From: a virus
Strand: one strand, 5' to 3'
DNA: 32,108 nucleotides
Virus record (IMG/VR): IMGVR_UViG_3300043466_003046
Location: 1 to 32,108 of that record
Shown in pieces: positions 1-32,108 of this stretch; position 1 is the first letter of the stretch, and every line of letters starts with the position of its first letter. The notes under the pieces are model-generated. The model saw nothing but the letters and a program-made list of their open reading frames with translations, made no database searches and had not been told where the DNA came from. The position numbers and the translations under genes were made by a program.

Positions 1-125
1 ACTCCTCCGTTCTCCTGCTCGGCGCAGTAGATCATGAGGTTGAGCCATGTGGCACGCTGGACAGGATCGCAGCCGACATACTCCGGCGAACGAATCACTG
101 ATGTTTGTAGGTTCAGCCAGTTCAT
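1..125 (-). CDS. Replication initiator, N-terminal part (duplicate of the right-end gene)
   Basis: This is the 5' end of the gene at 31216-32106, present a second time because of the terminal overlap. The ATG lies at 123-125 and the reading frame runs leftward off the window. It shows that on the circle the replication gene starts 7 nt after the stop of the SSB-like gene, with only TCCCCCA between them. The two are therefore co-transcribed neighbours. It is not a separate or truncated gene. Confidence 0.9.
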   Translation of the reverse strand, partial: MNWLNLQTSVIRSPEYVGCDPVQRATWLNLMIYCAEQENGG

Positions 126-127
126 TG
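1..127. repeat. Terminal direct repeat, left copy (circular contig overlap)
   Basis: Bases 1-127 are identical to 31982-32108. An exact terminal duplication of 127 bases is the overlap that a de Bruijn assembler using k=127 leaves on a circular molecule. The genome is therefore best read as a circle of about 31,981 bp. A true phage terminal repeat of this length cannot be excluded from sequence alone. Confidence 0.95.
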
Positions 128-6857: not shown

Positions 6858-7265
6858 ATGATTCCGTTCGACGAAATAGACCAGCGCCTTGAAAAACTAG
6901 GGCGAAACCGAAAGTGGCTTGTCGAAGCCACCGGTAGATCCGATCACGCTATCCGCTCGGCATTGGCTCCCAATGCTACCTCGAAGTCCCGCAGCGCCCT
7001 GCTGCAAAAGGCTTTGACCGACGCCATTGAGCGCGAGGAATCCGAGCAGGCAAAGAAGCCGGAACTCACAAAGTCGATCTCGCTTGAACCTTCGATTGAG
7101 GAATACCGGTTCTGGTCGGAGGCTTTCAAATCGAGCCCGTACTCGACCATTGAGGAATGGGCGGTCGCTGCGCTGAATGGATCATCCGGTGCGCTGCATG
7201 TCCTCCCGACATCCATGGTCGCCGAAGAGCCTGCCGAGTATGGAGCAAAGAGAAGGCCGAAGTGA
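6858..7265 (+). CDS. Short CI-like HTH repressor
   Basis: The 135-residue protein is the only rightward gene next to the operators. Its N-terminal 45 residues form a likely helix-turn-helix (LGRNRKWLVEATGRSDHAIR). The C-terminal half (YRFWSEAFKSSPYSTIEEW) is helical and could dimerise. It has no LexA/S24 self-cleavage domain, so induction would differ from lambda CI or need an antirepressor. No Shine-Dalgarno precedes the ATG, and the promoter elements lie so close that a leaderless mRNA is plausible, as for lambda cI made from PRM. It is followed by a strong terminator. Confidence 0.7.
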   Translation: MIPFDEIDQRLEKLGRNRKWLVEATGRSDHAIRSALAPNATSKSRSALLQKALTDAIEREESEQAKKPELTKSISLEPSIEEYRFWSEAFKSSPYSTIEEWAVAALNGSSGALHVLPTSMVAEEPAEYGAKRRPK

Positions 7266-7383: not shown

Positions 7384-7407
7384 ATGGTCCCTGAAGGGTC
7401 CATTTTT
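7384..7407 (+). terminator. Second hairpin with T-tract
   Basis: ATGGTCCCTGAAGGGTCCAT can fold with one internal mismatch around a TGAA loop and runs into TTTTT. It lies just behind the first terminator and is probably a backup; it may also be a protein site, since its arms resemble the operators. Confidence 0.5.
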
Positions 7408-7452: not shown

Positions 7453-7497
7453 TTCGTAATGAGCAGGTCGTCGGTTCAAATCCGACCAGCGGCTCCA
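7453..7497 (+). other. attP core: 3' half of a tRNA-Thr (anticodon CGT)
   Basis: The 45 bases from TTCGTAA to CCA equal the anticodon loop, 3' anticodon strand (TGAGC), variable loop, T-arm (GTCGG TTCAAAT CCGAC), acceptor strand CAGCGGC, T and CCA of a tRNA-Thr. The 5' half of the tRNA is absent, so it is not a gene. Its position 80 bp upstream of the integrase makes it the likely attP core, which restores the host tRNA on integration. Confidence 0.85.
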
Positions 7498-7577
7498 TTT
7501 TACTAGGGTTTTTGAGGGTAAAAAGGGAAAAAGAAGAAACTTGAGAAAGCACGAAAGGGCCATAAGGTGCAGGCAAG

Positions 7578-11032: not shown

Positions 11033-11362
11033 TTATCGGGTCAGGTGTTCTTTCACTTCACGCAGGATGTCAGAATTTTGCTCGATCACGCGGTGGTTTT
11101 GCGAGGTGATCTCGACGAGTTGTTGAAACTGCTTATCGCGTTCGAGATCGCGTTGCTCGAACTTGGATTCGGACTTGTCGAGTCGAGCGACGAGCCAGCG
11201 CAGGGCGAACAAGGCGGCACCAAGCGCACCGAGCGGCCCGGTGAGGATCTGCATCCATTCGGGCATTTCGAGCGACTCAGCGGTGATCGAGGCCAGCTTG
11301 CCACCTGCCACGCCAGAGAGCATGACGGTTGCGGCGGAGAGGGTGTGGGTGGTGATGGTCAT
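11033..11362 (-). CDS. Membrane protein with C-terminal coiled coil, lysis-cassette associated
   Basis: A 109-residue protein with an N-terminal hydrophobic region (LSAATVMLSGVAGGKLA), a second segment (GPLGALGAALFALRWLVARL) and then a charged helix of about 50 residues (KSESKFEQRDLERDKQFQQL...) likely to be a coiled coil. This resembles holin-like or antiholin proteins found in phage lysis modules, but it could also be a tail-end protein. It overlaps the upstream gene by 4 nt (ATGA). Confidence 0.6.
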   Translation of the reverse strand: MTITTHTLSAATVMLSGVAGGKLASITAESLEMPEWMQILTGPLGALGAALFALRWLVARLDKSESKFEQRDLERDKQFQQLVEITSQNHRVIEQNSDILREVKEHLTR

Positions 11363-11649
11363 GCCCAGAAAATGTTAGGTGTGGATTCGTCGGTGGGGCG
11401 TTGCTCGCCGGAGGCAGATGACCACGCGATGAACTGCTCGCCGCCTGCGGGAATCGGGATGCCAACGAGATCACGGAAGAGAACCCACCAGTCCGAGCCT
11501 TGATGCTCACCGATGATGTGGAGTGCGTATTCATGGGACGCGAGGGCGATTTGCTCGTTGCCTTCGTCGTCGATTACAGCAAATCCGTTGGCTAGTCCGA
11601 ACTGGACTGCGGTGGCGCGTGATGGGAATTTTAAGAGGTAGTCGGTCAT
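11359..11649 (-). CDS. Small protein downstream of the tail fibre
   Basis: The 96-residue protein begins MTDYLLKFPSRATAVQFGLANG and contains GSDWWVLFRDLVGIPIP. A similar arrangement, a roughly 100-residue gene right behind a fibre, is common in phages and often encodes a fibre accessory or chaperone. I do not recognise a family. The start overlaps the fibre stop (ATGA), which supports coupling. Confidence 0.6.
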   Translation of the reverse strand: MTDYLLKFPSRATAVQFGLANGFAVIDDEGNEQIALASHEYALHIIGEHQGSDWWVLFRDLVGIPIPAGGEQFIAWSSASGEQRPTDESTPNIFWA

Positions 11650-22627: not shown

Positions 22628-22653
22628 GAACGCTACCGATGAGAATCCGAACC

Positions 22654-23511
22654 TTAGGCGGACTTGATGATCGCCATGGTGCCGTCGGTGAGGCCTTTGG
22701 CTGCGCCGAACATAAGCTCGAGCGAAGCGTTGACCTGACGGTTGGCGGTCGAGCCCCAGACATTGTACTGCACCGAGAGACCGAGTTGGTCGAGGGTGAC
22801 AACATCGCTGACTGCGAACTGAGCGCGCACTGCGTCGTCGATCGCGGGAGCGCCAGCGGCCATCACAAGGGCTTCTGGCGAGCAGCCGAAACCGATCATG
22901 TTGGTTTCACCACCGAACGAGCTGGCGTAGTGGACACCGTTGTCGAAGCCGTAAGCACCGGCGCCGAGGTTGATGGCGGTCGTGCTGGTCGGGATCAGCT
23001 GCGAGTAGATCGTCGGGGAAACGACGAGGCCTTTGCGGGCGCTCTTGCTGATCGCGGCCCAGACCTTTGGCAGATCGCCGGAGGTGGCGGTGATGCCGGT
23101 GGCAGCCTTGGTCACAGCAGCGGCACCGAAGTTGGCAACAGTCACCGGAGTGGTGGCGAGCGCCCAGATCTTATCGGCGAGTGCGTCGAGCGAGATTTGG
23201 ATCAAGCGCTCAAGGCGGTGGCCGTTTGCCAACTCAGCCGCGGTGATCGCGAAAGGTTGGAAGATGTGGTCGAGAGTGACGGTGCCTTTGCCCACGGTGG
23301 CGCTGCCGCCGGGCTCAAAGTTGGTCGGGTTGACAACAGTCGCGCCGGTCGCGGAAACGATCGGGACTTGGATGGTGTCCTTGGCCTTCTTGGCATCCGA
23401 CGAGAAGTCGGTGGCGAAAAGGTTAAGGGCGGCGAGACGGTTGCTGAGAACCGTCTGTGCTTGTTGCGCGATGGAATCGGCAACGAGGGAGGAGTCGAAT
23501 GTGTTAGGCAT
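22654..23511 (-). CDS. Major capsid protein
   Basis: The 285-residue protein starts MPNTFDSSLVADSIAQQAQT. It has the layout of HK97-fold coat proteins: N-terminal helix, E-loop and P-domain-like strands (DTIQVPIVSATGATVVNPTN; DALADKIWALATTPVTV), and a C-terminal beta segment with QVNASLELMFGAAKGLTDGT. It directly follows the protease/scaffold gene and precedes the neck genes, the canonical capsid position. The gene has a leader (AACCCCAAACACACCCCCGC) and a strong terminator behind it. There is no N-terminal delta domain to cleave, so the scaffold function probably lies in the long tail of the protease. Confidence 0.82.
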   Translation of the reverse strand: MPNTFDSSLVADSIAQQAQTVLSNRLAALNLFATDFSSDAKKAKDTIQVPIVSATGATVVNPTNFEPGGSATVGKGTVTLDHIFQPFAITAAELANGHRLERLIQISLDALADKIWALATTPVTVANFGAAAVTKAATGITATSGDLPKVWAAISKSARKGLVVSPTIYSQLIPTSTTAINLGAGAYGFDNGVHYASSFGGETNMIGFGCSPEALVMAAGAPAIDDAVRAQFAVSDVVTLDQLGLSVQYNVWGSTANRQVNASLELMFGAAKGLTDGTMAIIKSA

Positions 23512-23553
23512 TGCGGGGGTGTGTTTGGGGTTGGTTTCGTGGTTCTCTCCGGC

Positions 23554-24675
23554 TCACGCCTTCGAAAGGGATGCGCGGTGTTTCCAGATCGCGGCCTTGT
23601 GCGACTCGAAGAGCGCGGATGCGGCTTTGCGGTCGCCTGCCTCAACGGCGGCGAGGTACTCGGCGACTGGGTCGCTCACTTCTGGCGCGGAATTTTCGAT
23701 CACCGGCACGACGCGTGCGGCGGCGAGGCCAAGCGAACGCTCGAGGCTCGCGAGTGCGCTGCGCTCTGCATCGAGCTCGGCTTTGACTGCGGTCAGATCG
23801 CTCTCGGCTTTTTCAGCGCGGGCGAGCACGGCGTTGTACTTGGCGAAGATCGCGTCGGCGTGTGGCACGGATGCGACCGGCACGGCAGGTGCAGGTGCTT
23901 CTTCTTCTTGAACTTCTTCTTCGCTGCCTTCGCTTTCGATGACTGCGTCTTCGGTGATGGCGACGGGTGCTTCTTCGGCAGCGGCAGGCTCGACGATGGC
24001 CTCATCGGCGGGGGCGATGACGACTTCCTCTTCGGAGGGTTTGACTTCTTGGTCCATATCCACGGACCGGGCTGTCAAATCGGATGGCGCGTTGCGGAAC
24101 TTTCCGAGGCGCGAAAACTTGTTGGCGCTGGCAGCGAGCGCGAGTGAATCGGTGACTTCATCGACGAAGCCAGCGGCCTGCGCTTCTTCGGCAGAGAACC
24201 ATGTCTCGGCATCCATCCACGCGGCGATCTGCTCTGGCTCTTGACCGCTCTTCGATGCGTAGGCGGCGATCATGCCTTCGCGGATCTTCTCGAGGAGTGC
24301 GGCTTGATCGCGCATCTCGTCGGCATCGCCCATCGCGACTCCCCACGGGTTGTGGATCATGTAGAATCCATTCGCCGCCATCTTCACCGGAGCACCGGCA
24401 AGGCTGATGACGGTGGCCATCGAGGCTGCTAGGCCTTCGATCTGGACGGTGACGCCGCCGGGGTGACGCTTGAGCGCATTGAAGATCGCGTTGCCATCGA
24501 ACACTTCGCCGCCGGGGCTGTGGATCTTGAGGACGATCTCGTGATCGGCAGGGACGCGCTTGAGGTCGCCGATGAACTGCTTGGCGCTGACGCCGTAATA
24601 ACCGATCTCATCAAAGATGGAGATTTCGGTTTGGCGAACTTCAGCGCGGGCAGATAGGGCATACCAGGTCTTCAC
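23554..24675 (-). CDS. ClpP-like head maturation protease with scaffold tail
   Basis: The 373-residue protein has a serine protease domain of the ClpP (S14) fold in its first 180 residues. The triad is visible: GLAASMAT (Ser85), FYMIHNPWG (His108) and MDAETWF (Asp155), with HSPGGEVFDG at 52-61 forming the oxyanion loop. The rest is an acidic, Ala/Pro/Glu-rich linker (EVKPSEEEVVIAPADE...) and a coiled-coil C-terminus (AEKAESDLTAVKAELDAERS), typical of a scaffold. As in lambda gpC/Nu3, it would drive capsid assembly and then digest the scaffold. Start is GTG (24673-24675), 13 nt after a TTTTGACA element. Confidence 0.92.
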   Translation of the reverse strand: MKTWYALSARAEVRQTEISIFDEIGYYGVSAKQFIGDLKRVPADHEIVLKIHSPGGEVFDGNAIFNALKRHPGGVTVQIEGLAASMATVISLAGAPVKMAANGFYMIHNPWGVAMGDADEMRDQAALLEKIREGMIAAYASKSGQEPEQIAAWMDAETWFSAEEAQAAGFVDEVTDSLALAASANKFSRLGKFRNAPSDLTARSVDMDQEVKPSEEEVVIAPADEAIVEPAAAEEAPVAITEDAVIESEGSEEEVQEEEAPAPAVPVASVPHADAIFAKYNAVLARAEKAESDLTAVKAELDAERSALASLERSLGLAAARVVPVIENSAPEVSDPVAEYLAAVEAGDRKAASALFESHKAAIWKHRASLSKA

Positions 24676-26639: not shown

Positions 26640-27623
26640 ATGCAAGTCACCATCAGCGCCGAGGATCTGTTCTCAATCGTCGAGAGCATGAGGGCAGAGC
26701 TCAGCGCCCGTCCCGCGAAAGCGCCGGTCGTGTATCCTGCCGAGATCACCAAGCCGATGCTTGCCAGTCGCTGCGATGAACATGAGGAGTTGGCGTTTCC
26801 CGTGCTCGCCACGCCGAAGCTCGACGGCATCCGCTGCTTGAAGGTTGGCGGTCGCGCTCTGACCCGTTCATTCCTCCCTATTCCCAATCGCTTTGTGCGC
26901 GAATGGATCGAGGCCAATCTGCCTGATGGCGTGGACGGCGAGTTGATGCTGCGCGGCGGCACATTCAGCGAGACGACCAGCGCGATCGGTTCCAGCGATG
27001 GCGAGCCCGATTTCGTTTTCCATGTCTTCGACTATGTGCAGACCTCGACCGGCACGCCGTACAGCGAGCGCATCAAGGCGCTGGCGGCGCTTCCAGATTC
27101 CGATCGGGTCGTGAAGGTGCTGCCTGTGGAAGTCCAAGGCACCGACGATCTCGCTGCCTATGTACAGACCTGCTTGGCCGAAGGCTATGAGGGCGTGATG
27201 GTTCGCACGCCTGATTCACCTTACAAGTGCGGGCGCTCGACCGTGAAGCAAGGATACCTTCTCAAGATCAAGCGCTTTGAGGATGCCGAGGCGGTGGTGG
27301 TCTCCACTTACGAAGGCATGACCAACCAAAACGCGGCAGTCCAAGACGCCTTTGGAAATACCAAGCGCGGACTTTCCAAGGCTGGCATGGTCGGACGCGG
27401 CGAGCTCGGTGGCTTCGTGGTTCGTAACCTCTCGACCGGCGTGAAGTTCCGGTTGGCGTACAATCACAACGCAGGCGGCATTGACCGCGTGAACCTGTGG
27501 GAAAACCGCGACAGCCTTGTCGGCAAGATCGTGAAGTTCAGCCATCAACCGAGCGGGGCAAAACAAGCTCCACGTTTTCCGGTGTTCATCGGATTCCGCG
27601 AGACCTGGGATATGAGCGCATGA
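26640..27623 (+). CDS. ATP-dependent DNA ligase, T7-like
   Basis: The 327-residue enzyme has all motifs of ATP-dependent ligases in order: ATPKLDGIRCL (adenylated Lys60), DGELML at 99-104, FHVFDYV near 127, EGVMVR at 184-189, and YLLKIKRF near 206. A C-terminal OB fold follows, with GKIVKFSHQPSG and RFPVFIGFRE. It is slightly shorter than T7 ligase (359 aa). It would seal nicks in replicating or recombining phage DNA or in the circle after infection. It is encoded on the strand opposite to the structural genes, between the large terminase and the head genes. That location, with its own promoter, marks a moron-type insertion. Confidence 0.93.
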   Translation: MQVTISAEDLFSIVESMRAELSARPAKAPVVYPAEITKPMLASRCDEHEELAFPVLATPKLDGIRCLKVGGRALTRSFLPIPNRFVREWIEANLPDGVDGELMLRGGTFSETTSAIGSSDGEPDFVFHVFDYVQTSTGTPYSERIKALAALPDSDRVVKVLPVEVQGTDDLAAYVQTCLAEGYEGVMVRTPDSPYKCGRSTVKQGYLLKIKRFEDAEAVVVSTYEGMTNQNAAVQDAFGNTKRGLSKAGMVGRGELGGFVVRNLSTGVKFRLAYNHNAGGIDRVNLWENRDSLVGKIVKFSHQPSGAKQAPRFPVFIGFRETWDMSA

Positions 27624-31215: not shown

Positions 31216-32106
31216 CTAGGATTGCATTTTCTTCTTTTTGATAGGATCGAAGAACTCGGCGAGTTCCTCCCGGCTGATGGTTGGTCTCGATGAGACCGGC
31301 ATCGGGATCGTGTTCGGCGGTGGGCGTGATGCCTCTTGTTTCTTCCTCCAAGCGGAGGCGTGAGTCCAAACATCGGATGGGTTTTCGAGAAACTTTGTCC
31401 GGCTTCGAGGTTGCCATGCTGGGACACCATTCGGGATCTTGGCGTAAAGGTAATCCTTCATCGTTTGCCATTGGGCCGCTGTTAGCTCAGAAAGGCACCG
31501 TGACGCCTCCGAAAGAAGTTTTTGCTCTGTGTATGCCAAAGGCAACTCCCAGCCGCTCCTGAGCGATCTGACGCGCTTTTCAAGATCGAGCATCGATTGG
31601 GCATTTGCGGTGGGCATGTTCTCGGCATAAAAATCCTCCGCGCTCTCGCTCGCTTCGCTTTGGGGGGTAGGGGGGAGTATTCCTTTCTCTTCCTTTCCTT
31701 TCCTTTCCGTTGAAGGGGGGCTTGAAGGGAGGGTTGAAGGGGGGCTTGAACTGTCCTGTTTTTCCTTGGATTTTGCAGCGTTTTCCGCGCGCTTCTTTCC
31801 TCCCCTCGCACCGCTCTCGCGCATCTTTTGAATCTCCTCCTGCTTCTCTGCCGGGTAGGCCCAGATGGTTAGATTCTCTCCGTCGAATGACCAGAGATCA
31901 CATTGGTCGTCCACCTCGGGCTTGGTGACGCCGCAGGTTTGTTGCCAGCGGCGATCCTTCCAGCTTGCGCAGTCCGGTATCACTCCTCCGTTCTCCTGCT
32001 CGGCGCAGTAGATCATGAGGTTGAGCCATGTGGCACGCTGGACAGGATCGCAGCCGACATACTCCGGCGAACGAATCACTGATGTTTGTAGGTTCAGCCA
32101 GTTCAT
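31216..32106 (-). CDS. Replication initiator protein with embedded origin
   Basis: The 296-residue protein begins MNWLNLQTSVIRSPEYVGCD...RATWLNLMIYCAEQENGG, the winged-helix start common to phage replication initiator proteins (DnaD/lambda O-like in architecture). A charged low-complexity linker holds SSPPSTLPSSPPSTERKGKE and contains DNA repeats that look like an origin. The C-terminal part (LPLAYTEQKLLSEASRCLSE...) is helical and could contact the host helicase. No helicase or primase gene is present, so the phage must rely on host replication enzymes. The ATG lies in the 127-base overlap, showing that the gene is intact on the circle. Confidence 0.8.
   Translation of the reverse strand: MNWLNLQTSVIRSPEYVGCDPVQRATWLNLMIYCAEQENGGVIPDCASWKDRRWQQTCGVTKPEVDDQCDLWSFDGENLTIWAYPAEKQEEIQKMRESGARGGKKRAENAAKSKEKQDSSSPPSTLPSSPPSTERKGKEEKGILPPTPQSEASESAEDFYAENMPTANAQSMLDLEKRVRSLRSGWELPLAYTEQKLLSEASRCLSELTAAQWQTMKDYLYAKIPNGVPAWQPRSRTKFLENPSDVWTHASAWRKKQEASRPPPNTIPMPVSSRPTISREELAEFFDPIKKKKMQS
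31661..31757. other. Candidate replication origin: 12-bp iterons beside a pyrimidine tract
   Basis: Units of 12 bp start with TTGAA at 31710, 31722, 31734 and 31746 (TTGAAGGGGGGC, TTGAAGGGAGGG, TTGAAGGGGGGC, TTGAACTGTCCT). The flank 31678-31709 is a pure pyrimidine run on the plus strand with repeated TCCTT units, and G-runs lie at 31662-31675. Like lambda ori, it lies inside the initiator gene. The 12-bp period also equals four codons, so part of it could be protein-driven. Confidence 0.6.
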
Positions 32107-32108
32107 TG
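31982..32108. repeat. Terminal direct repeat, right copy
   Basis: Identical to 1-127. See the left copy; it indicates a circular molecule and holds the 5' end of the replication initiator gene. Confidence 0.95.

Follow-up and report, generated by a model that had tools for sequence, protein, structure and literature searches.

Half of a tRNA gene lies a short distance upstream of an integrase gene in the viral DNA analysed here (32,108 bp, hereafter the window). Such an arrangement raises the question of what the fragment is for and, if it serves integration, whose tRNA it copies. We suggest that the site is, very probably, the attP of a temperate tailed phage of Verrucomicrobiales, and that the phage inserts through it, by means of its integrase, into the tRNA-Thr(CGT) gene of the host. 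The features discussed are collected in Table 1.

Table 1. Features of the phage and of its putative integration region (window positions unless another contig is named)
Feature	Position	Strand	Remarks
Direct terminal repeat, left copy	1..127		identical to 31982-32108
Small MerR/HTH protein, 69 aa	6362..6571	-	candidate excisionase; profile match below Pfam cut-off
135-aa protein	6858..7265	+	between candidate Xis and attP; kept in nearest relatives
Candidate arm-type sites, left (P)	7386..7402	+	GGTCCC 7386-7391, GGTCCA 7397-7402, 11 bp spacing
attP core	7453..7497	+	45 bases = positions 31-75 of Verrucomicrobiales tRNA-Thr(CGT)
Predicted crossover interval TTCGTAATG	7453..7461	+	7-nt anticodon loop plus two bases
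Candidate arm-type sites, right (P')	7557..7571	+	GGGCCA 7557-7562, GGTGCA 7566-7571, 9 bp spacing
Tyrosine integrase, 354 aa	7578..8642	+	PHROG and Pfam integrase matches
Direct terminal repeat, right copy	31982..32108		identical to 1-127
Core in contig L055 (alternative T-stem group)	11320-11364	-

Identity of the core and of the host

The core, TTCGTAATGAGCAGGTCGTCGGTTCAAATCCGACCAGCGGCTCCA, equals the last 45 bases of a host tRNA-Thr(CGT) gene at all 45 positions, from the anticodon loop to CCA. The identity stops at exactly 45 bases; just before them the window has C where the host tRNA has A. Read as the 3' part of a tRNA, the core consists of anticodon loop TT-CGT-AA, the 3' strand of the anticodon stem (TGAGC), variable loop AGGTC, T arm GTCGG-TTCAAAT-CCGAC, acceptor CAGCGGC, discriminator T and CCA. 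The second-best spot in the window matches only 26 of the 45 bases, and the tRNA 5' half, looked for across the window, is absent (best 18/30). The initial annotation had described just this, a tRNA-Thr from anticodon loop to CCA lacking its 5' half. Because the core is half a tRNA, the absence of any tRNA (ARAGORN) or Rfam match in the whole window is an expected result. The typical host gene is GCCGCTGTAGCTCAGGGGTAGAGCAGCTCA followed by the core, and the host 5' half joined to the phage 3' half scores as tRNA-Thr(CGT).

We scanned GTDB representative genomes of 84,980 species for the exact 45-mer. It occurs in 23 places, all of them in Verrucomicrobiota (Verrucomicrobiaceae/Akkermansiaceae), in records titled Verrucomicrobia, Verrucomicrobiaceae, Akkermansiaceae, Akkermansia, Luteolibacter, Haloferula or Prosthecobacter. 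At 22 of them ARAGORN finds a complete tRNA-Thr(cgt) that ends exactly with the 45-mer, T discriminator and encoded CCA included; the remaining copy is a displaced fragment, located where an integrated element with its own tyrosine integrase ends. The search proposed by the initial annotation has thus located the 45-mer where it was expected, at the 3' end of tRNA-Thr(CGT) genes, and the predicted ending (CAGCGGC, T, encoded CCA) is borne out in 22 genomes of one order. More broadly, 215 of 387 sampled genomes of this order carry a tRNA-Thr(CGT) with at most three mismatches from the degenerate pattern used. Judged on the sequences compared, an exact 45-base match to the tRNA genes of one bacterial order cannot be due to chance.

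The host order named in this way is Verrucomicrobiales; the tRNA gives the order, not the species. It is very unlikely that the host belongs to some other, unsampled group that shares the tRNA-Thr 3' half. Halves of tRNAs may generally be common to related groups and the set of genomes is incomplete, but among the 84,980 species the exact 45-mer is confined to Verrucomicrobiota, and two further lines of evidence lead to the same hosts. Firstly, a related circular phage (94-bp terminal repeat; integrase 67% and RecT 88% identical) is binned with the Verrucomicrobia MAG REEB478, whose own tRNA matches the window core exactly. Secondly, when 50,697 named phages are ranked by integrase match, three Akkermansia prophages (Chambord, Chantilly and Moulinsart) come first, and Moulinsart is again the closest named phage by terminase.

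A complete phage genome with a single attP

The exact direct terminal repeat of 127 bp shows the window to be a complete genome, circular or circularised, of about 31,981 bp; its GC content is 56.5%. Its genes include terminase (GpA), lambda-type portal, tape measure, tail proteins, RecT and YqaJ. An ATP-dependent DNA ligase gene (26640-27623) lies on the opposite strand between the portal and terminase genes, and a 502-aa open frame (22639-24147), antisense to head-region frames and with no PHROG match, is probably not a gene.

The core is present in a single copy, with phage genes on both sides. In a closed genome, and next to int, such a core is attP, not attL or attR. If the window were instead an integrated prophage or the end of a scaffold, the fragment would be an attR scar, and the integration model would likewise place the same 3' fragment beside phage DNA; no tool result favors this. 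The terminal repeat that closes the genome, the phage genes on both sides of the core and the conservation of the core flanks among independent phage contigs make this reading extremely improbable.

The int gene begins 80 bp downstream of the core and is directed away from it. In the integrase the conserved R, K, R, H and Y are present, with R221, K250, R302, H324 and Y335 as candidate catalytic residues and D299 where His is usual. Upstream of the core, the MerR/HTH protein is a candidate excisionase by its size, fold family and position. The 135-aa protein has no family match and is possibly a lysogeny regulator.

The core is flanked on either side by two direct repeats, at set distances of about -68/-57 and +59/+68, which may represent arm-type integrase sites. 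Their motif varies between phages, yet it is common to all four copies inside one phage: GTGGCA in L007 and L014, GGCAAT in L015, AGGTCC in L012, and TTGGGC(AG) at -70/-60 and +80/+91 in L016 and the REEB478 phage. The right-arm sites are weak in the window phage and clear in its relatives. A first test with spacings of 10-12 in both arms missed the clade of the window; when repeated with 11 (left) and 9 (right), it gave matching sites at the conserved positions. Equally good repeats arose in 0-1 of 200 shuffles for the relatives and in 2 of 200 for the degenerate copies of the window, counts that are somewhat flattering because the spacings were chosen after inspection of the sequences. The recurrence at the same positions with concerted changes of motif is a stronger argument for arm sites than the shuffle counts.

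Related viral contigs and the second T stem

The degenerate core was found in 13 viral contigs with the arrangement kept. All integrase relatives in IMG/VR that have upstream DNA (about 57-97% identity) possess the core just upstream of int, at about the same place. Among phages with diverged flanks, identity begins at TTCGTAATG or one base before it and continues to CCA. Compared by blastn with some 50,000 named phage records, the att-int region has no DNA match.

In several relatives (L014-L017, L021 and the REEB478 phage) the T stem of the 3' half is a different one, GAGAG/CTCTC instead of GTCGG/CCGAC. This stem is still fully paired, three compensatory pair changes away, and the alternative halves joined to the common host 5' half still score as tRNA-Thr, although versions with TGTGC have one mismatch in the anticodon stem. 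A tRNA-Thr(CGT) gene with this second allele would end AGGCCGAGAGTTCRAATCTCTCCAGCGGCTCCA. In samples of the order and of the phylum, no host tRNA has the GAGAG/CTCTC stem; the sole match is the phage contig itself. An unsampled host is the likeliest cause. It is conceivable, though rather doubtful, that selection maintains the tRNA half of attP as an RNA, whether or not it matches the host, and that lysogeny swaps part of the host tRNA-Thr for the phage version.

Junctions in bacterial genomes

In genome G246, a full tRNA-Thr(CGT) is followed, 76 bp further on, by an integrase 48% identical to that of the window, cut by the contig end; this junction is an attL. MAG REEB478 contains an element of 5.8 kb (L064 4111-10040, JAGWXY010000017.1) whose two ends are a full tRNA-Thr(CGT) and 49 nt of the tRNA 3' part; its integrase, 26% identical, is on the attR side. 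An element of 8.3 kb in JAIXWR010000033.1 (L058 9734-18119), with a 40%-identical integrase, has reversed polarity: the native locus retains a 39-nt 5' fragment, and the DNA upstream of this locus matches what flanks the same tRNA gene in Haloferula and Luteolibacter; at the far end of the element the tRNA is whole again. A rebuilt whole tRNA and a displaced fragment are observed for relatives of the integrase at 48% and 40% identity. Further, integrases 42% and 37% identical follow tRNA-Thr(TGT) and tRNA-Asn(GTT) in the same geometry (L057, L060, L061), which indicates that the family changed its target tRNA while the geometry was kept.

Carriers of the 3' half (positions 31-75) and the carrier of the 5' half (1-39) overlap only at positions 31-39, TTCGTAATG. 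If both types use one crossover point, the crossover would fall into the anticodon loop, within the interval given in Table 1.

The genomes searched, the sample of 387 of the order included, yielded no prophage of this phage or of any near relative, and the phage's own attL and attR are thus predicted from the model. The closest integrase in those 387 genomes (67%) sits in a circular contig that bears attP and is not integrated. The expectation that the core predicts the integration site is nevertheless supported by the neighboring integrase and by related integrases beside the same tRNA in integrated elements; of the anticipated prophages flanked by the 45-mer, related elements at tRNA-Thr(CGT) were recovered, those of the phage or its near relatives were not. 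At L033 2340-2390, the DNA that follows a tRNA-Thr(CGT) of a host is similar to the L014 attP in its right arm (AGGATT.CTAGCGGA) with no integrase after it, possibly the scar of a lost prophage.

It is hardly credible that the fragment has nothing to do with integration and is a relic, or else a functional piece of tRNA that serves translation or acts as a decoy: the tRNA secondary structure is kept, with compensatory T-stem changes in relatives, but the 5' half is missing, the piece alone is not recognised as a tRNA, it always lies beside an integrase, and in relatives it is rebuilt into a whole tRNA after integration.

Comparison with known systems

The attP of P22, SfI, SfV and ES18 in thrW of enterobacteria uses the same tRNA-Thr(CGT) and the same stretch (ATTCGTAATG... 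to CCA); for SfI, a 46-nt core was proved by junction PCR (PMC3636060). Most of the P22-type core is covered in 106 phage records, and 36 of its 46 bases equal the Verrucomicrobiales version. The two systems differ in host phylum and in the orientation of int, which in P22 ends beside attP and points towards it, whereas in the window it starts beside attP and points away. A common origin with the P22 integration system was considered but found no support, as the two integrases (BLASTP E 0.22; hhalign probability 64, catalytic domain only) fall short of family-level homology. By this comparison P22 integrase would be at most a very distant homologue.

Nearest by integrase are Chambord, Chantilly and Moulinsart, induced prophages of Akkermansia muciniphila (PMC10197239) and hence of a verrucomicrobial host. 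Their integrases belong to the same family (26-29% identity), and each of their records opens with the 3' half of a tRNA, anticodon loop onwards; as in the window, int comes right after it. The terminase of Moulinsart is 35% identical. They differ from the window phage in their low protein identity and in the tRNA, which by our own reading of the anticodon loops is Leu TAA, Asn GTT and Met CAT, not Thr.

Exact tRNA fragments of 39-46 bp beside an integrase have been used to tie metagenomic phages to hosts, one marine Verrucomicrobia phage among them (PMC3861242). The latter was linked to a marine single-cell genome with a GC content of 42.3%, as against 56.5% of the window, a comparison of base composition. 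In the Islander collection (PMC4383910), class A comprises islands with crossover in the anticodon loop and a displaced 3' fragment, and 3,760 islands have 3' fragments versus 159 with 5' fragments. The window phage would not differ in kind from class A.

Model of integration and its meaning

In the model we propose, the integrase would recombine attP with attB, the host tRNA-Thr(CGT) gene, by strand exchange in the 7-bp anticodon loop. The 5' half would remain that of the host and the identical 3' half would come from the phage, so that the whole tRNA gene would be rebuilt at one prophage end (attL), with the displaced 3' half of the host left at the other (attR). The expected attL would consist of host 5' half and phage 3' half, then TTTTACTAGGG; attR would consist of phage ...CCTGTTC and host 3' half.

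This is an ordinary and well-known mode of integration; new is the phage group that uses it. A host order can be assigned to an uncultured group of phages whose attP-integrase region has no DNA counterpart in named phage records. An integrase only distantly related, if at all, to that of P22 would share its target stretch of tRNA-Thr(CGT), in a phylum far from that of the P22 hosts. Finally, attP and attB are now defined, and the proposed reaction can be tested in culturable Haloferula or Luteolibacter.
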